Virus record (IMG/VR): IMGVR_UViG_3300011113_000054
Coordinates: 1-30,292 of that record
Reading direction: 5' to 3' (one strand)
Length of the DNA stretch: 30,292 nt
Origin: a virus
Numbering within the stretch: the stretch's first letter is position 1; each line of letters starts with the position of its first letter. A program made the position numbers and the translations under genes. The notes below the pieces were generated by a model. That model ran no database searches. It saw only the letters and a program-made list of their open reading frames with translations, and was not told the origin of the DNA. Positions 7,005 to 23,115 of this stretch are shown piece by piece.

Positions 7005-8201
7005 ATGGCGACAAGACTACCCTATTACGTTAGCGAAGGCGACATCTATAGCAGGATCATGGGCCAGCAGGCAGCGCCGAGCGCAATGGCTGATTACTAC
7101 GCAGGATTTGCTGGTGGCTATGACCCTGGCCTGTATCAGCGTCGCAGAAATCAGGCTGCTGCGAATGCAGCGGCTGGAGCAGGATCAGGTCTTCTTGATA
7201 CTGGCGGTGGCGGTGGTGATCTTGACGCCTCTGGTGGGGTATCTGGGAACCCTGCTGATGCCATTGCACTAGGTCTGGCGTTGTCTGCTTATGGTGGCCT
7301 GCTTGGTGGGTTTGCGCCTGGTGGCTTTTTGGCTGGCTTGGCTGGCAAAGGTCTTACATCGTCTGGAATAACTGCTCTTGGCGAATTGGAGGCTAAAGCA
7401 GCACAGATAGCAAACGATCAGGCCGCGATGGATGCTCTGGCAGGACTGTCAAATGCTGCTGTTGGAGAGGCAGAGGCGCAGGCCATTGCTGATGCGATAG
7501 CAAATGAATCTGGTCTTGCCGTAGCGGCTGACGCTGCTGCTGCCGCTGCACAGGCGCAGGCAATGGCTGATGTACAGGCGCAAGAGCAAGCTATGGCGCA
7601 AGCAGAGGCAATGGCACAAGCACAAGCCCAAGCAGAGGCAATGGCACAAGCTGAAGCTATGGCTCAAGCCCAAGCAGAGGCAATGGCACAAGCTCAAGCC
7701 CAAGCAGAGGCTATGGCACAAGCCCAAGCTATGGCACAAGCTCAAGCCGCAGCAGATGCGCAAGCCGCCGCTGATGCACAGGCTGCTGCTGATGCCGCTG
7801 CCGCCGCAGATGTTGCCGCGATGGGTGATGTCGGAATGGGTGCCGATAGTGGTGCCGTTAATGGTGGAGAAAGTGGCGTAAGCGCAGGCGGCGAAGCAGA
7901 TGGAGGTGGCGCTCAATCTGGTGGCGGTTCAGACGGTGGCTTTGGTGGCGGTGGAGATTCTGGCGGTGGCTTTGGTGGCGGTGGAGAAGGCGGTGGAGAT
8001 GGTGGTGGTTGGGCTGATGGCGGCATGGTGACTGCTAATGGGTTGCTTATGGATGACACTTTGCCTGGACCAGATGAAGGATATGGCGCCTTGCAGGTCG
8101 GCGAGTACGTCATCAATAAATCGACCACGAAGAAACTTGGCCAGAAAAAGCTGCAAGCCTTGAACGAAGGCCGAGCCAGTATCAAAATGCGTAGGAAATA
8201 A
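7005..8201 (+). CDS. Low-complexity Ala/Gln/Met and Gly-rich virion-type protein
   Basis: This 398-residue protein has four zones. Residues 1-55 are folded (LPYYVSEGDIYSRIMG). Residues 80-180 are Gly/Ala-rich and weakly hydrophobic. Residues 183-268 are a repeat of Ala-Gln, Ala-Glu-Ala-Met and Ala-Asp units. Residues 295-340 are almost entirely Gly with Asp/Ser. The C-terminal ~55 residues return to a folded domain (LPGPDEGYGALQVGEYVINK, then a Lys-rich helix), an ending shared by many phage proteins near ejection genes. GAAGG at 6995-6999 and ATG 7005 set the start. The long Ala/Gln helix could line or cross a channel, but no function can be assigned. It is followed by three further Ala/Gln-rich proteins. 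Confidence 0.75.
   Translation: MATRLPYYVSEGDIYSRIMGQQAAPSAMADYYAGFAGGYDPGLYQRRRNQAAANAAAGAGSGLLDTGGGGGDLDASGGVSGNPADAIALGLALSAYGGLLGGFAPGGFLAGLAGKGLTSSGITALGELEAKAAQIANDQAAMDALAGLSNAAVGEAEAQAIADAIANESGLAVAADAAAAAAQAQAMADVQAQEQAMAQAEAMAQAQAQAEAMAQAEAMAQAQAEAMAQAQAQAEAMAQAQAMAQAQAAADAQAAADAQAAADAAAAADVAAMGDVGMGADSGAVNGGESGVSAGGEADGGGAQSGGGSDGGFGGGGDSGGGFGGGGEGGGDGGGWADGGMVTANGLLMDDTLPGPDEGYGALQVGEYVINKSTTKKLGQKKLQALNEGRASIKMRRK
7558..7806 (+). repeat. Intragenic tandem repeat encoding AQ/AEAM units
   Basis: Within the preceding gene the DNA repeats units of 6, 12 and 30 bases built from CAAGC(C/A)(C/G)A and AGAGGCAATG-type words. A near-identical stretch around ATGGCACAAG recurs about every 24-36 bases between 7590 and 7740, and GCTGATGC-type units follow to 7806. 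Synonymous third-base differences (GCA/GCC/GCT) are scattered through the copies, so the array is old enough to have drifted or is being selected at protein level. Copy number is a likely site of length variation between related phages. Confidence 0.8.
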
Positions 8202-11152: not shown

Positions 11153-13152
11153 TGGCAACATCTTTGCGCTCAGGCATGGCGGTTCCGATGGATGACTTGC
11201 CAGAGAATTTGCGCGATGCGGCATCAGGTCAGCCTGTCCCACTAAGTGCATTGCCTGCCGATTTAGTCCAGGCGCTTGAATCTGCCCTTAATCTTTCCAT
11301 GGTAGGGGACAAGCAATCGATTCCTATTGGTGATACGTTGCTGCGCCAGCTTGGCCTTACCGCTAGAGCGGTTGGCCCTGTAGCCATAGGCGCTCTTGGC
11401 GGTGGTGCTGTGGCTGGGCCTCCTGGAGCGGCAGTAGGCGCTCTCGGTGTTGGACTTGGCACCATGATTGGAGATCCTTTAATCACGCTATTTAATCGTG
11501 CCGCTGGAACTAATATCAGCACACCAAGTCAAGCAATTGAAGGCGCGATGACTAGGATGGGGCTGCCTGAGCCAGCGACACCTACTGAGCGCGTCATGCA
11601 AGATGTGGTCAGGGCTGGAACATCAGCAGCCGGCTCTGCTCGCGGTGCTGGCGTGATTTCTGAGAACATCTTACGCGGTGCAGGGATGCAGGGTGTGCCT
11701 GTTATGGGGCCTGCTGCTCCAATCTCTGCGCAGGTTATGCAAGCATTGTCGCGGTATCCGTCTCAACAAGTTGTAGGCGCAAGCATGGCCGGCGGCGCTG
11801 GTGGTGCCTTGAGGGAGTCAGAGGCAAGCCCTCTTGCGCAGATTGGCGGCGCAATGGCTGCTGGCATGATGGCGCCAGGCGGTCCTCGATTGCCTTTAAC
11901 TGCTCGCGCACTTGAGGCGCCTGGAGCGATGATTAAACCTTTCACAGAGACGGGCCGCGAGATCATCGTCGGCAATGTGCTGAACCGTCTTGCAACGACA
12001 CCGCAAGCCACAGCAGCACGCCTTGCTGCCGCAGAGCCGCTAGTTCCTGGTGTCAGGCCAACGACTGCTGCTGCCGCTCAAGATCCAGGTCTTGCCGCCG
12101 CCGAGACTGCCATTAGGGCATTGGATCAGTCAGGCGCTTTCCCGTCTCAGTTGTCTGCAAACCAGCAGGCGATCCTTGAGGCTTATCGGCGTCTGTCTGG
12201 CCGGCCTGGATCAATTGAGAGGGCAGAAGCAAAGCGTACAGAGATCACTGCTCCAATGCGTCAGCAAGCATTTGAGTCCGTTACGGTACGCCCAGAGACT
12301 TTCCAATCTGGCATTGCATTGACCGTTGACAGAGCTATCGAAAACATCAGGAATAGTCCTGCTGGAGTTCGCCAAGACGTTGAAACAGCAATGAATTGGG
12401 CTACATCGCGGATTGCCAAGGCTCGCACCCCAATGGAGTTGTACGAAGTCCGAAAGGACTTGTCAGCGGCAATGCAAGGCAAATACAACCAAGATGTTCC
12501 GAGCTTGCGTCTTGCAAAAGGTCAATTGTCTGATGTTGTGCGCGAGGTTGATGCAGTCATTGAAGCATCTGCGCCGGGGTTCAGGGCATACATGGACAAA
12601 TTCTCTAGGATGTCTCAGCCCATTGACCAGATGCGCATACTGCAAGACATTGAGCGCAGAGCAACTACTGGTCAGCCTAACCTGATGACGGGAGAGCCGG
12701 TCATCGCAGCAGGATCTCTGCGACGACAACTGGCAACGCGATCAGCAGAGATCGGCGCTGAGTTGTCTCCAGCAGCGCAGCGCAAGCTGGATAACATCGT
12801 AGATGAAATCAATCGCGGCATGGCGGCTACTGCGCCAGGAGTTAAGCCACCGGGATCTGATACCTTCAAAAACATGAGCATGGGCAATCTGATCGGTCGC
12901 GTATTCAGCGAATCGCTGGCGACCGATACGACACTGCGCACCATGACTAGGCCGCTTGACTTCCTTTATCGGCTGCCAGATCAGCAGATCCAGCAATTGC
13001 TTGTTGAGGCGATGCTTGATCCCAAACTTGCGGCATTGATGATGACTAAAGCCAGCACGATGCGCGTTGAACCTTTGGCAAGATCTCTGAGACAAAAGGC
13101 AGAGCAACTAGGATTCGGTACTGCAATTGGCGCTACAGGAGCAGCACAGTAA
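11152..13152 (+). CDS. Putative internal virion / DNA-ejection protein with hydrophobic glycine-rich segment
   Basis: This 666-residue protein starts at ATG 11152, sharing one base with the upstream TAA; the frame is open back to 11137. Residues ~77-107 are a long Gly/Ala/Val hydrophobic stretch (VAIGALGGGAVAGPPGAAVG) that could insert in a membrane, and there are further Gly/Ala-rich segments near 200-245. The rest is helical and charged: TAMNWATSRIAKARTPMELY, then LRLAKGQLSDVVREVDAVIE and FRAYMDKFSRMSQPIDQMRI. The helical half looks like the rod-forming part of an ejection protein. No enzyme motif was found. It is third in the ejection run and abuts the ADP-ribosyltransferase gene directly. 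Confidence 0.68.
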   Translation: MATSLRSGMAVPMDDLPENLRDAASGQPVPLSALPADLVQALESALNLSMVGDKQSIPIGDTLLRQLGLTARAVGPVAIGALGGGAVAGPPGAAVGALGVGLGTMIGDPLITLFNRAAGTNISTPSQAIEGAMTRMGLPEPATPTERVMQDVVRAGTSAAGSARGAGVISENILRGAGMQGVPVMGPAAPISAQVMQALSRYPSQQVVGASMAGGAGGALRESEASPLAQIGGAMAAGMMAPGGPRLPLTARALEAPGAMIKPFTETGREIIVGNVLNRLATTPQATAARLAAAEPLVPGVRPTTAAAAQDPGLAAAETAIRALDQSGAFPSQLSANQQAILEAYRRLSGRPGSIERAEAKRTEITAPMRQQAFESVTVRPETFQSGIALTVDRAIENIRNSPAGVRQDVETAMNWATSRIAKARTPMELYEVRKDLSAAMQGKYNQDVPSLRLAKGQLSDVVREVDAVIEASAPGFRAYMDKFSRMSQPIDQMRILQDIERRATTGQPNLMTGEPVIAAGSLRRQLATRSAEIGAELSPAAQRKLDNIVDEINRGMAATAPGVKPPGSDTFKNMSMGNLIGRVFSESLATDTTLRTMTRPLDFLYRLPDQQIQQLLVEAMLDPKLAALMMTKASTMRVEPLARSLRQKAEQLGFGTAIGATGAAQ

Positions 13153-18845: not shown

Positions 18846-19568
18846 ATGAATGAGTTGGCTCTTTTCGCAGGCGCTGGTGGAGGAATACTCGGAGGGAAAC
18901 TGCTCGGATGGAGAACGGTCTGCGCAGTCGAGTGGGAACCCTACGCAGCTAGCGTACTTGTCGCCCGACAGAATGACGGACTTCTCCCGCCTTTCCCGAT
19001 TTGGGATGACGTTCAAACCTTTGACGGAAGACCGTGGCGAGGAATTGTTGACGTCGTATCTGGCGGCTTTCCGTGCCAAGACATCAGCGTTGCAGGCAAA
19101 GGCGCAGGAATTGACGGAGAACGATCAGGAATGTGGAGCCACATGGCGCGGATCGTTGGCGAGGTTCGACCCCGTTACGTCTTCGTGGAGAACAGCCCAG
19201 CCCTCCTTACTCGAGGACTTTGGCGAGTCCTCGGTGATCTGGCCGCGCTCAGGTATGACTGCCGGTGGACAGTGCTGGGAGCTGCCGATGTGGGAGCGCC
19301 GCACCAAAGGGACAGGTTCTGGCTGGTGGCCCACGCCGCAAAGCAGCGACAACAGAAATCGAGGTACGCGCTCAACGCCAGCGATAGCAAGGCGCATTGC
19401 AGCTGGCAAGCAAGTCATGCTATCGATGGTAATGGATGGACCACTGAACCCGATGTTTGCGGAGTGGATCATGGGGTGGCCGCTAGGGTGGACAGACTTA
19501 AAGCCATTGGTAATGGACAAGTCCCACTGTGTGCCGCAACAGCATGGAAACTCTTAACAGAAAAATGA
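18846..19568 (+). CDS. C5-cytosine DNA methyltransferase (contains a second long ORF in +1 frame)
   Basis: This 240-residue enzyme is predicted to methylate cytosine in DNA, probably to protect phage DNA from host restriction. All key motifs are seen: motif I FAGAGGG (7-13) for AdoMet, motif IV GGFPCQDISVAGKG with catalytic Cys77, motif VI VENSPAL (Glu115), motif VIII HQRDRFWLVA, and motif X DRLKAIGNGQVP (216-227). The region between VIII and X that should recognise the target is only ~50 residues, so the target cannot be guessed. Length is short for the family but ends are intact. It starts at ATG 18846 with a weak GAAAGCGAG upstream. Positions 18850-19557 also encode another protein in the +1 frame. 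Confidence 0.9.
   Translation: MNELALFAGAGGGILGGKLLGWRTVCAVEWEPYAASVLVARQNDGLLPPFPIWDDVQTFDGRPWRGIVDVVSGGFPCQDISVAGKGAGIDGERSGMWSHMARIVGEVRPRYVFVENSPALLTRGLWRVLGDLAALRYDCRWTVLGAADVGAPHQRDRFWLVAHAAKQRQQKSRYALNASDSKAHCSWQASHAIDGNGWTTEPDVCGVDHGVAARVDRLKAIGNGQVPLCAATAWKLLTEK
18850..19557 (+). CDS. Nested +1-frame ORF inside the methyltransferase, with sequence like a widespread phage protein family
   Basis: This 235-residue ORF starts four bases after the methyltransferase ATG (ATGAATG) and ends 11 bases before its stop, so it is almost entirely nested. It does not look like a chance shadow. It opens MSWLFSQALVEEYSEGNCSD and has RFGMTFKPLTEDRGEELLTS, then GSLARFDPVTSSWRTAQPSL, IWPRSGMTAGGQCWELP (130-146), GTGSGWWPTP (154-163) and LNPMFAEWIMGWPLGWTDLK (199-218). 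I recall stand-alone phage and prophage proteins with SSWRTxQ, WPRSGM, WPTP and LNPxWVEWLMGWPxGWT in this order. The function is unknown. The two starts probably share one ribosome site. The family link is from memory and needs a search. Confidence 0.72.
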   Translation: MSWLFSQALVEEYSEGNCSDGERSAQSSGNPTQLAYLSPDRMTDFSRLSRFGMTFKPLTEDRGEELLTSYLAAFRAKTSALQAKAQELTENDQECGATWRGSLARFDPVTSSWRTAQPSLLEDFGESSVIWPRSGMTAGGQCWELPMWERRTKGTGSGWWPTPQSSDNRNRGTRSTPAIARRIAAGKQVMLSMVMDGPLNPMFAEWIMGWPLGWTDLKPLVMDKSHCVPQQHGNS

Positions 19569-19577
19569 AGGCTGCAA

Positions 19578-21656
19578 ATGCAAGCTGAAGAAATAGCCAA
19601 AACACTCGGCAACGCCAAGAAGGTCAACGGCCAATGGCTCGCCTCATGCCCAGTTACCGGCCACGGTCGGGGCAACGGCGACAAGAACCCGTCACTGTCA
19701 ATCAGCGATGGCACTGACGGTAAACCCTTGTTCCACTGCCACGGGGGCTGCGATCAGCAGACCGTGTTCTCCGTCATGCGTGATCGAGGTCTGCTGCCAG
19801 AGCTTGAGCATCGGCCTGAGCCTCTCTCACGCATCCAGCCGCCAGCAGTCAACCGCCAGCTTGAGCAGGAATGGACGTACACCGATGAGGAAGGCGTCGT
19901 CCTCTTCATTAAGCAGAGATATCGCACCACAGACTCCAAGGGCAAGGACTACAAGCTCATCAAGGTGGACGATGCAGGCAGAAGGCACGCGACGATGGGA
20001 GACGCCCGGATCGTGCCGTATCGCTTGCCTGAGCTTCTCGATGCCGTGAGTAAGGGAAGGTTTGTCTATCTCACGGAAGGCGAGAAGGCCGCAGACGCGA
20101 TCATCAGCCTGGGCAGCGTGGCGACTACTTCGCACGCTGGATCTGGGCACTGGCCCGAATCGATCACGCAATACTTCGCCGGCGCCAATGTCGTGATCCT
20201 GCCAGACAATGACGCGCCAGGCTGGAAGTACGCTAAGAGGGCGGCAGCCAAGATCCTGCCGATCGCAAAGTCAGTCAGGGTCATCGATCTGGGCGGCGAT
20301 GAACTGGGAGACGATGCCTACGAGTGGATCTACAAGCAAGGCAAGACGCGGCAGGACCTGGCCGATTTGGTCAAGCGCCAGGCGCCACTGACCAGCGAGG
20401 CAGAGGTCCAGATGCCGGAGCGCCTGCGGGAAAAGCCACCAGAGGCAGCGCCGCCAGAGTCAGCAGTCACCTCGGCAGCGCAGATCGCCACCAGAGAACC
20501 AGAGGTTTCCGAGTCCGGCTTGACGCTGAAGAGAACCCTCAGCCTCGAAGCCTTCGACGACATCACCGATGAGCCGGTCGAGTGGCTTATCGATAGGGTT
20601 ATCCCGAGGAAAGGTTTCGTGGCGCTGTACGGGCCTCCGGGTTCATTTAAGAGCTTCATCGCCTTGGATCTCGCGGTTGCGATCGCCCGATCTGCCCAGT
20701 GGTTCGGCCTCGAGGCAAAGACAACCGACAAGGGTGCCGTCATCTACATCGCAGGCGAAGGCCACGGCGGCATAGGGGCAAGGATCAAAGCCTGCCGCAT
20801 CCACCACCAGATTGAGGCAGGAACACCGATCTATTTCTTGCGTCATCAGATCAATCTCAGATCCAGCGAGGAAGACTTTTCGCGCCTGGTGTATGCCGTA
20901 AGGGAGTTGATCCTTGCGGTTGGCGTCAAGGTGGAATTGATAGTCATCGATACGCTGGCTCGCGCATTCGGCGGCGGCAACGAGAACTCGAGCGAGGATA
21001 TGGGTGCATTCATCACCTCCTGCGGACACCTCCAAGACGAGTTTAAGGCCGCGCTGATGGTCATCCATCACAGCGGAAAGGACGCCGCGAAGGGTCTGCG
21101 GGGTCACTCTTCGCTGCTCGGCGCAGTTGATACGGAGCTTGAACTGCTGCGCTTTGAGGATCAACCGCGCGGCGTTTTGACGGTCAGCAAGCAAAAGGAT
21201 GGCGAGGATGGGCTGCGCTTTGGCTTTGAAATGGTCGAGGTCGAGATCGATCAGGGCCGCGAGGGAAGCCTTAGTCTTGATGAACCGCGCAAGTCGCTGG
21301 CCGTCAGTCCGAGCGATGAGGTGCTGAAAAATAAGGCAGATGAGGCGAGGAAATCGAACCTCAATCGGTCTGGAAAGGGGCATAACCAGAGGCTGGCGAT
21401 TGACGCCTTGAAGGATGCCGTTAATGCTAAAGGTTTCCATTGGAAGGTGTCGGTGGGGACTAGAAAGGTGGTCAGGTTGGAGGATTGGAGGGCTGCTTTT
21501 GCTCAAAAATTAGGCACTGACGATGTGGGAGAGTCATCCTTTAAGAAGGCTTGGAGCAGGGTCAGGGACGCCGAGAAGCTGCCGTCATGGGTCTGCATAG
21601 AGGGTGAAAATGTCTGGATTGAGGATCAAAGCCGTGATAGAAGTGAGAATTTCTAG
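19578..21656 (+). CDS. Primase-helicase: zinc finger, Toprim and RepA-like helicase domains
   Basis: This 692-residue protein is the predicted replication primase and helicase. Residues 20-60 are a CHC2-like zinc finger (Cys24, His29, Cys54, Cys58 in LFHCHGGCDQ). Residues 160-240 are a Toprim domain with Glu168 in TEGEKAADAI and LPDNDAPG (Asp210/Asp212). After an Ala/Pro/Glu-rich linker (270-315) comes a RecA-fold helicase: Walker A GPPGSFKS (352-359), Walker B LIVIDTLARAF with Asp458, and VIHHSGKDAAKGLRGHSSLL (495-514). This is the AAA_25/RepA type. The C-terminal ~110 residues are basic and HTH-like and could bind the repeat array that begins right after the stop. The start at ATG 19578 is nine bases after the methyltransferase. 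Confidence 0.9.
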   Translation: MQAEEIAKTLGNAKKVNGQWLASCPVTGHGRGNGDKNPSLSISDGTDGKPLFHCHGGCDQQTVFSVMRDRGLLPELEHRPEPLSRIQPPAVNRQLEQEWTYTDEEGVVLFIKQRYRTTDSKGKDYKLIKVDDAGRRHATMGDARIVPYRLPELLDAVSKGRFVYLTEGEKAADAIISLGSVATTSHAGSGHWPESITQYFAGANVVILPDNDAPGWKYAKRAAAKILPIAKSVRVIDLGGDELGDDAYEWIYKQGKTRQDLADLVKRQAPLTSEAEVQMPERLREKPPEAAPPESAVTSAAQIATREPEVSESGLTLKRTLSLEAFDDITDEPVEWLIDRVIPRKGFVALYGPPGSFKSFIALDLAVAIARSAQWFGLEAKTTDKGAVIYIAGEGHGGIGARIKACRIHHQIEAGTPIYFLRHQINLRSSEEDFSRLVYAVRELILAVGVKVELIVIDTLARAFGGGNENSSEDMGAFITSCGHLQDEFKAALMVIHHSGKDAAKGLRGHSSLLGAVDTELELLRFEDQPRGVLTVSKQKDGEDGLRFGFEMVEVEIDQGREGSLSLDEPRKSLAVSPSDEVLKNKADEARKSNLNRSGKGHNQRLAIDALKDAVNAKGFHWKVSVGTRKVVRLEDWRAAFAQKLGTDDVGESSFKKAWSRVRDAEKLPSWVCIEGENVWIEDQSRDRSENF

Positions 21657-21815
21657 TTGGGGACAAATCGGGACAAATGGGGGACAAATGGGCGCGATTT
21701 GTCCCACGGAAAAAGAGGGGACAAATCGGCACAAGGGTATACCTGTGCCGATTTGTCCTGTCCCAAACCGATCTGTCTATATAAGTCAGTAGACACTAAC
21801 GTAGAGGATTAAAAT
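21657..21815. other. Candidate replication origin: GGGACAAAT iteron array
   Basis: This 159-bp non-coding gap holds at least six copies of (G)GGGACAAAT(C/G)GG. Forward copies are at 21659-21671, 21669-21680, 21680-21692 and 21717-21729; reverse copies are at 21695-21705 and 21748-21758. A weaker reverse copy lies at 21768-21777. The first three are packed head to tail at about 10-11 bp spacing, one helical turn. An AT-rich stretch with TATATAAG follows (21778-21785). Iterons next to a replication gene followed by AT-rich DNA are the usual form of an initiator-bound origin. No experimental support is available. A role as an operator region for the next gene is the alternative. Confidence 0.65.
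21719..21758. repeat. 15-bp perfect inverted repeat inside the iteron array
   Basis: GGACAAATCGGCACA (21719-21733) and TGTGCCGATTTGTCC (21744-21758) are exact reverse complements around a 10-base spacer. The spacer itself contains the palindrome GGTATACC (21736-21743). The arms contain one forward and one reverse iteron. A cruciform or a hairpin is possible. It is not followed by a T-run, so a terminator is unlikely. Confidence 0.85.
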
Positions 21816-22574
21816 ATGTCGGTGAAGAAGAGGGGAGCAGTCAGGAGGTCAGGGCAGATTCCGGTTGCGCTGGCGGTTCAATATCCAGAGACAGAGTTCT
21901 CGCGGTTGCAGCGTGCGAAGATCGTTGAGGTCGATCTCGCGCAGGTCGAGCATGAGCAGATTTGGGGTATCGGGAGGGTGATTACTTTAGTTCCTACTGA
22001 ATTTCGGGTGAAGTTTTACGCGCAGTCGGAGAGGATCTGGTCGGCGCAAGCCAGTCAGGATGCGGTCAAGTTCATCGCGGCCTGCGATGGGATGATCCGA
22101 GCCTTCAAGGCGATGAGCAACTGGGCGCAGGCCGAAGGCATCGAGCCGATCAACCAGGCCGGTCAGGTCAGGGCAATCGAAGCCGATACCGATCTGGGGA
22201 TCATGGTCATCGTCAAAGATGAGCGGGACGCGAATCAGTACCTGGCGATCCGAAAGGATGTGGTGCAGGTCTGGACGGTCAGCGAGGTCGCAGAACTGCT
22301 CAAGACCGGGATCGGTCAGGCAATGGCAGACCTGAAGGCGCAACTGCCAGTTCGCGGATTCGTTGCTGCGGTGCAGCAGGATTCGGCAGCGCATTCGGCA
22401 GATTCGGCAAAAGGATTCTGCAACAGCGCAGGCGAGGGCAAGAAGGCCGGTGGCGAAGCAGTGGGCCTCGGGGGGGCATCAGGGTTCGAGGATCTGGAAA
22501 ATGACATAGACCTTGATGAGCCACCCAAGTTCCCTAAAATGTTCAAACTGCCGAAGTCGGCGAAGGAGAAGTGA
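21816..22574 (+). CDS. Hypothetical protein downstream of the putative origin
   Basis: This is a 252-residue protein. The N-terminus is basic (MSVKKRGAVRRSGQ). Residues ~20-190 look like a mixed alpha/beta domain: PTEFRVKFYAQSERIW, DAVKFIAACDGMIRAFKAMS and GIMVIVKDERDANQYLAIRK. After residue ~195 it becomes Ser/Ala/Gly-rich and ends with an acidic patch (FEDLENDIDLDEPPK) followed by a Lys/Pro-rich tip. AGAGGA at 21802-21807 precedes ATG 21816. I recognise no family. Its place between origin and terminase suggests a role in DNA replication or late gene control, but this is context only. Confidence 0.68.
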   Translation: MSVKKRGAVRRSGQIPVALAVQYPETEFSRLQRAKIVEVDLAQVEHEQIWGIGRVITLVPTEFRVKFYAQSERIWSAQASQDAVKFIAACDGMIRAFKAMSNWAQAEGIEPINQAGQVRAIEADTDLGIMVIVKDERDANQYLAIRKDVVQVWTVSEVAELLKTGIGQAMADLKAQLPVRGFVAAVQQDSAAHSADSAKGFCNSAGEGKKAGGEAVGLGGASGFEDLENDIDLDEPPKFPKMFKLPKSAKEK

Positions 22575-22576
22575 CC

Positions 22577-22669
22577 ATGAAGGGCTTTATCGAGCGTTTG
22601 AGGCGATTTTGCAGCGACCTGAAGGGTAGGGTGCTCGGGGCGATGAAAAGGGCTAGGAGGGGCGATTGA
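22577..22669 (+). CDS. Tiny basic amphipathic peptide upstream of terminase
   Basis: This 30-residue ORF (MKGFIERLRRFCSDLKGRVL, then GAMKRARRGD) has 10 Arg/Lys and an amphipathic helical pattern. AAGGAGAAG at 22563-22571 sits before ATG 22577, and its stop overlaps the ATG of the small terminase gene (TGATG at 22667-22671). The good ribosome site and exact coupling favour real translation. It could act as a leader that couples translation to the terminase, or as a DNA/RNA-binding peptide. Confidence 0.45.
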   Translation: MKGFIERLRRFCSDLKGRVLGAMKRARRGD

Positions 22670-23115
22670 TGCCGGGAACGCCGAAGAAGTGGTCTGATGT
22701 GCAGGTTCTCAACAAGCTGCCAGAAGACATGATCCTCGCCATGTTCGAGGCCGGGAAATCGGTCGCGGACATTTGCATCGACCTCGGGGTCAGCAAACGC
22801 GCACTGGACATCTGGATCGAGGAAAACGAGTTAGAGCCTAGAATAACGCGCGCGCGCATGTACGCAGCCGATTTAATGGCCTGCGAGACGGTGAAGATCG
22901 CGGACGCGATCGACGAGGCGAACCCGGCGCGGCCTCTGCACCGCATTCGCACGCGCCAGTGGATGGCCGAGCGCTGGGATCGCAAGACGTATGGCACGCA
23001 AAACGGGCCTCAGATCACGCTGAACATCCAAGACCTGCGCCTGAACGCGCTGCGGCACGCCGAGGTGGTCGAGGACTTATCCACAGATGTGACGCCCAAG
23101 TTGTCCACAAATTGA
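22669..23115 (+). CDS. terS: Terminase small subunit
   Basis: This 148-residue protein is predicted to recognise the packaging site and regulate the large terminase. The N-terminal part has a helix-turn-helix (MILAMFEAGKSVADICIDLG, then VSKRALDIWIEE), and the middle is a charged helix ending RIRTRQWMAERWDRKTYGTQ, typical of small-terminase proteins that form oligomeric rings. ATG 22669 is preferred to TTG 22666 because it is coupled to the upstream stop and gives a standard N-terminus. The last codons contain a perfect DnaA box (23077-23085) and a near one overlaps the end (23101-23109). The large subunit follows after a 433-bp gap, an unusual distance. Confidence 0.8.
   Translation: MPGTPKKWSDVQVLNKLPEDMILAMFEAGKSVADICIDLGVSKRALDIWIEENELEPRITRARMYAADLMACETVKIADAIDEANPARPLHRIRTRQWMAERWDRKTYGTQNGPQITLNIQDLRLNALRHAEVVEDLSTDVTPKLSTN

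Follow-up and report, generated by a model that had tools for sequence, protein, structure and literature searches.

Which protein reads the dense array of short direct and inverted repeats that lies directly 3' of a primase-helicase gene in the IMG/VR virus record IMGVR_UViG_3300011113_000054, and what is the array for? The window, that is the stretch of DNA analysed here, is the whole 30,292-bp record, and the array is located in the gap between the stop of the primase-helicase gene (21656) and the start of a gene for a 252-residue protein (21816). The original prediction took this gap for a likely replication origin or a protein-binding switch region, with the C-terminal part of the primase-helicase or the 252-residue protein as candidate binders. 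Judged from the conservation of the array in relatives and its co-variation with the upstream protein, the 160-bp stretch is very probably a phage replication origin, with the primase-helicase as its own initiator acting through a predicted C-terminal winged helix; the first candidate binder is the one that these comparisons support as the best reading.

The array and the gene upstream of it

The gap contains the following features.

21660 to 21668, plus strand: iteron 1, exact copy of GGGACAAAT
21670 to 21678, plus strand: iteron 2, exact copy of GGGACAAAT
21681 to 21689, plus strand: iteron 3, exact copy of GGGACAAAT
21697 to 21705, minus strand: iteron 4, ATTTGTCCC, inverted exact copy of GGGACAAAT
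21718 to 21726, plus strand: iteron 5, exact copy of GGGACAAAT, left flank of the hairpin
21751 to 21758, minus strand: iteron 6, ATTTGTCC, inverted and shortened copy (GGACAAAT), right flank of the hairpin
21719 to 21758, no strand: inverted repeat, 15-bp arms (21719 to 21733 and 21744 to 21758) round the 10-nt centre AGGGTATACC
21773 to 21815, no strand: AT-rich tract (67% AT) leading up to the next gene, where the DNA might melt

Six or more repeats had been claimed; there are slightly fewer, namely five exact copies of GGGACAAAT and one shortened GGACAAAT between 21660 and 21758, and the one-turn spacing of three of them holds, iterons 1–3 being spaced by 10 and 11 bp. These first three follow immediately on the helicase gene, and the last two (5 and 6) are part of the inverted repeat, whose arms are GGACAAATCGGCACA and TGTGCCGATTTGTCC; it is perfect as described, the sole 15-bp one in the window, and GGTATACC stands 1 bp from its axis. 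The density of the array is confirmed to be far above chance: outside the array the window has one further copy of GGACAAAT (at 12594), the expectation from dinucleotide-shuffled sequence is 0.8 copies per window, and in 60 shuffles the maximum for any 8-mer was 4 copies per 160 bp. The AT-rich tract noted earlier is found in the window, but relatives do not consistently have one at this place.

The gene upstream and its relevant parts are as follows.

19578 to 21656, plus strand: primase-helicase gene, 692 amino acids, assigned from Pfam, PHROG and invariant residues
21375 to 21629, plus strand: codons 600–684, predicted C-terminal winged-helix domain, proposed iteron binder
21531 to 21563, plus strand: codons 652–662, predicted recognition helix SSFKKAWSRVR
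21543 to 21545, plus strand: K656, and 21546 to 21548, plus strand: K657, the columns most tied to the repeat unit

A primase-like part, a helicase and the predicted winged helix are all found in one open reading frame (ORF). As judged from residues invariant in 12 relatives, the N-terminus is zinc-binding-like (C24, H29, H53-C54, C58) and the middle part is Toprim-like (EGEK at 167–170, DND at 210–212), and residues 323–503 form an AAA_25 RepA-type helicase domain (PF13481, E=1e-40, 139.5 bits against a cut-off of 27). The protein matches PHROG primase/helicase families; in Pfam it matches AAA_25 only and shows neither DUF927 nor Primase_Cterm/D5_N, and no match to a RepA_N domain was obtained at E up to 0.01. 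The C-terminal part, thought to be basic, is only mildly so (22 K+R vs 19 D+E in residues 580–692), and all 38 matches of one search with the C-terminal domain are within primases, so that among these matches neither a nuclease nor any other protein outside primases has this domain. AlphaFold2 predicts for this domain an H-E-E-H-H-E-E order of helices (H) and strands (E), with domain blocks at a predicted local distance difference test (pLDDT) of about 67–89; the full-length model is poor (pLDDT 56) and served for the domain layout only. The VIA matches of the domain are winged helices of CAP, MCM and cullins at Z 6–7, which is background level and thus consistent only. The domain is called a winged helix because of the predicted topology, these background-level matches and the co-variation described below.

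Co-variation of the repeat unit with the C-terminal domain

Among primase relatives taken from IMG/VR (primases 53–94% identical), nearly all that can be assessed have repeats immediately 3' of the primase gene, several loci ending too early for the gap to be judged. The original prediction had made much depend on the repeats being kept beside the same gene, and it is their place that is kept, the unit itself varying with the C-terminal domain of the primase. Twelve unit classes, set with the analyst's own motif list, can be distinguished: GGGACAAA, GGTCAAA, GGTCGAA, GTGACGAA, GTGTCAAA, GGTAACAAA, GGTTACAAA, CTTACAAA, GCGACAA, GGAGACAA, ATCAGAA and CGTTACGTTAC. The direct and inverted copies within an array change in concert across relatives, as expected if one factor reads them all. 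In L021 and L022 the stop and the array are about 110–140 bases farther apart than in the nearest relatives, and a single copy of the unit stands where the gap begins. A search for primase relatives in bacterial genomes gave 59 pattern matches, none of which was confirmed.

In 92 distinct loci with 12 unit classes, sharing of the unit correlates with distance in residues 601–685 at a partial r of 0.51, the control being distance over residues 1–555; none of 500 clade-restricted label permutations, which leave some relatedness within clades, reached this value, and relatedness is partly addressed by trees and independent pairs. The corresponding values are –0.02 for residues 1–280 and 0.03 for residues 311–555, and an earlier run with fewer loci gave 0.00 ± 0.05 per segment over about residues 1–555 and 0.40–0.64 from residue 581 on. 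Furthermore, 38 changes of unit are counted with the tree of residues 1–555 and 14 with the winged-helix tree, the minimum being 11. For the neighbouring genes the partial r is 0.06 (252-residue protein), 0.02 (terS, n=75), 0.00 (methylase) and –0.01 (terL). Among the parts and genes tested, the unit tracks only the C-terminal ~100 residues. The 252-residue protein (21816 to 22574, plus strand, no family match), whose gene flanks the exchanged block described below, is therefore not favoured as the binder, and it was rejected as partner of the repeats together with TerS, TerL and the methylase. The same comparison bears on the reading of the array as a pac site for the small terminase: pac sites are often near terS, and terS (22666–23115, assigned from Pfam/PHROG) lies about 0.9 kb downstream, but it does not track the unit, and we give this reading hardly any credence.

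The domain and the array are an exchanged block, as read from mosaic sequences. Residues 1–555 of L106 (GGAGACAA) and L101 (CTTACAAA) are 99.8% identical and their winged helices 51%; for L068 (ATCAGAA) and L035 (GGTAACAAA) the values are 98.0% and 22%. In three such pairs nucleotide identity is mostly 75–100% outside and about 40–60% within about –350 to +150 of the stop, pointing to one cassette of ~500 bp that has been swapped repeatedly among relatives. Domain and array being neighbours that move as one block, chance recombination might carry the 3' end of the gene along with the gap, without the protein reading the repeats. Yet no tracking of the unit is seen in the genes on either side, the copies of an array all vary jointly, and the strongest columns are two adjacent residues of the predicted recognition helix.

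These columns are 657 (0.58) and 656 (0.42), the highest value in columns 1–555 being 0.33. Residues 656–657 are KK with GGGACAAA (5/5), KT with GGTTACAAA (21/21), KM with GGTAACAAA (10/10), NT with CTTACAAA (5/5), DK with GGAGACAA (8/8), RA with GTGACGAA (8/8) and RS with GGTCAAA (11 of 12), the remaining classes being mixed. Moreover, K657 goes with GACAA-type units in the same direction in eight of nine independent pairs and in the opposite direction in none (p=0.008). Residues 656 and 657 largely track the repeat used, which suggests a partial recognition code. Two independent base-to-residue rules failed: 657 fits (K-G, T-T and M-A before ACAA), and 656 is context-dependent.

Other lineages, the hairpin and the proposed mechanism

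A scan of IMG/VR for two spaced copies of GGGACAAAT, using DNA only, gave at least 119 contigs. Among the matches listed, 96 loci had a candidate upstream ORF and 86 passed a distance and length filter; after grouping by similarity, 11 groups are replication genes, that is the window's own and ten with an AAA_25 representative, to which Prim-Pol, Toprim, PriCT or DnaB-N domains may be joined. The other groups do not resemble replication genes. KK[AR][WFL] is present in the last 95 residues in 8 of these 11 replication groups, the other three having other C-termini. In a second family (relatives of L191), the residue equivalent to 656 tracks the outer base: K goes with GGTCTAC in 7 of 8 and R with CGTCTAC in 10 of 10 (p=0.0003), and GGGACA is found in 13 of the 18 with K, whereas 14 of 14 with N or T have other bases (p=3e-5), both being Fisher values that ignore relatedness. 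Similar residues thus occur with GGGACAAAT in the lineages that the DNA-only scan recovered, as well as in a second family, which speaks further against chance recombination of the block, a possibility that we consider very improbable. In L191, L239, L196, L213, L255, L170, L269, L159, L161 and L194, whose AAA_25 replication genes have widely differing primase partners (Prim-Pol, Toprim, PriCT, DnaB-N), an array is likewise found directly 3' of the AAA_25 gene, often with a hairpin that has TA in its apex (CCCTTTAGGG, TGTATACA).

The array could also be an operator, at which the primase-helicase or another repressor switches the downstream genes without any role in initiation. The inverted sites do lie in an intergenic gap upstream of a gene, and iteron origins often double as operators, so that autoregulation beside origin function is possible. 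Nevertheless, the domain that the unit tracks is part of a helicase-primase, the recovery by DNA alone leads to helicase genes in several lineages, the first three iterons are placed directly at the end of the helicase gene, and close relatives have TAGATAAG or CAGATAAG in place of the window's –10-like TATATAAG. We therefore regard a pure operator as unlikely.

The hairpin changes in sequence and keeps its pairing. The inner stem in clade A is TCACA, GCACA, TAGCA, GTGCA or TCAAA with the complement opposite and a AGGGTATACC-like core kept; four positions change on both sides, and pairing is found in 10 of 10 sequences, one pair including G-T(U). The clade B counterpart is CGAGAGTCTA..AGACTCG, and L134, whose stem is entirely different, has an apex of the same type (TCTATAAGA). 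L029 joins, about 135 bp past the primase stop, a clade A backbone to a clade B-like hairpin core, so the core also appears to be exchangeable. In three families, 47 of 77, 49 of 52 and 36 of 40 distinct loci have stems of at least 8 bp 3' of the stop, counts that include some inverted iterons besides the central hairpin; in mononucleotide shuffles such stems are found in 0–1 of 40. Because the sequence changes while the pairing is kept, it seems that the structure matters, as a cruciform, single-stranded DNA or RNA. The pairing kept through two-sided changes, including the G-T(U), would also suit an element acting in the transcript, such as a terminator, a processing site or a leader. A DNA palindrome or cruciform yields an identical pairing signal, however; there is no Rfam match and no T run after the hairpin, and the tracking of the winged helix by direct as well as inverted copies points to duplex DNA, so an RNA element appears quite improbable.

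Several observations weigh against an origin read by the primase-helicase. L075 and the distant L083 (MW202711; gap after repA) do not show such an array downstream of the stop, and two units are mixed in several arrays. The domain and the array being adjacent, linkage may inflate their association, and, as noted, the classes depend on a motif list of our own and the Fisher values disregard relatedness. GGTCAAA and GGTCGAA both go with RS, and five K exceptions in the second family share the helix LKKAWYR with non-G units. A Foldseek search of the C-terminal domain, whose structure model is moderate, gave no significant match in the PDB. Finally, the GC-skew minimum expected at the array is not seen, as the skew across the window has no turn there.

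On the preferred reading of an origin with its own initiator, the winged helix (about residues 600–684) would bind direct and inverted GGGACAAAT iterons, and several protomers gathered there would assemble the ring helicase; the DNA would melt probably at the hairpin or the adjoining AT-rich tract, and priming would then be carried out by the same polypeptide. By exchange of the winged helix together with its matching array, origin specificity would shift while the rest of the replication gene and its neighbours stay. The sequence directly supports the array and where it lies, the hairpin, the co-variation, the edges of the mosaics and the match of residues to units; from them we infer binding, helicase loading, initiation and a role of the hairpin, for which helicase loading or priming is a guess. 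Likewise, the sequence supports who reads the repeats, and that replication starts from this reading we infer.

More tentatively, we think it possible, though on balance doubtful in its entirety, that the AAA_25 primase-helicases encoded by many uncultured phages act as self-loading initiators, that their iteron is partly predictable from two residues of the recognition helix, that the origin generally carries an iteron-flanked hairpin with TA in its apex for helicase loading or priming, and that fast swapping of the cassette marks an arms race over origin specificity with origin-directed nucleases, satellites or competing phages. The pairing of domain and array described above gives a sequence-only route to replication origins in many phages known from metagenomes alone. 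With 12 unit classes in one family, and more in two others, it is also a natural resource of domains and their cognate sites for studying how winged helices read DNA. Moreover, the swapping of initiator-specificity modules, known in SaPIs and PLEs, is extended to tailed phages, of which a large group is concerned, and this raises the testable question of what selects for it.

Elsewhere in the window, a C5 methylase ORF is nearly fully overlapped by a 235-residue open frame on the same strand (18846–19568 and 18850–19557), and low-complexity repeats (GCACAAGC 8-mers) are located at 7449–7916 within a 398-residue ORF (7005–8201).

Comparison with known initiators

No paper on this architecture for AAA_25 phage proteins was found in the open-access literature, subscription journals being largely outside its scope. 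In the IncQ plasmid RSF1010, RepA is the helicase, RepC binds the iterons and RepB' is the primase acting with ssi hairpins. The RepA-type ring helicase, the iterons and the hairpins near the origin are common to both systems, whereas RepC and RepB' are separate proteins there and helicase, primase-like part and proposed iteron-binding domain form one polypeptide here; in addition, the hairpin here, unlike that of RSF1010, lies inside an inverted iteron pair. The link of the hairpin to priming is by analogy only. The alpha protein of phage P4 combines primase, helicase and C-terminal origin-binding activities and shares this three-in-one layout, but its primase and helicase families and its origin layout differ.

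Closer in principle, Cch2 of SCCmec binds iterons downstream of its own gene via a C-terminal domain, and SaPI Rep is described likewise (PMC7581432 and works cited there). As here, the iterons are directly 3' of a helicase gene whose product is a proposed self-loading initiator, and in some cases a primase is fused or encoded nearby. Those helicases are DUF927 or Primase_Cterm/D5_N proteins, whereas here AAA_25 is joined to a Toprim-like primase part in a tailed phage and the hairpin is flanked by inverted iterons. The RepA/origin pairs of PLEs swap as modules and are mutually specific by experiment, with an origin-directed nuclease perhaps as the driver (PMC8263062). There, as here, the DNA-binding domain and the origin co-vary and swap; the PLE is a satellite with an N-terminal RepA_N domain and ~30-bp semi-palindromic iterons, in contrast to the predicted C-terminal winged helix and the 8–9 bp units in 12 classes here. 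The principle is known from SaPI Rep, SCCmec Cch2 and PLE RepA; what is new here is the protein family, together with how many unit classes it has, the partial recognition code and the conserved hairpin.
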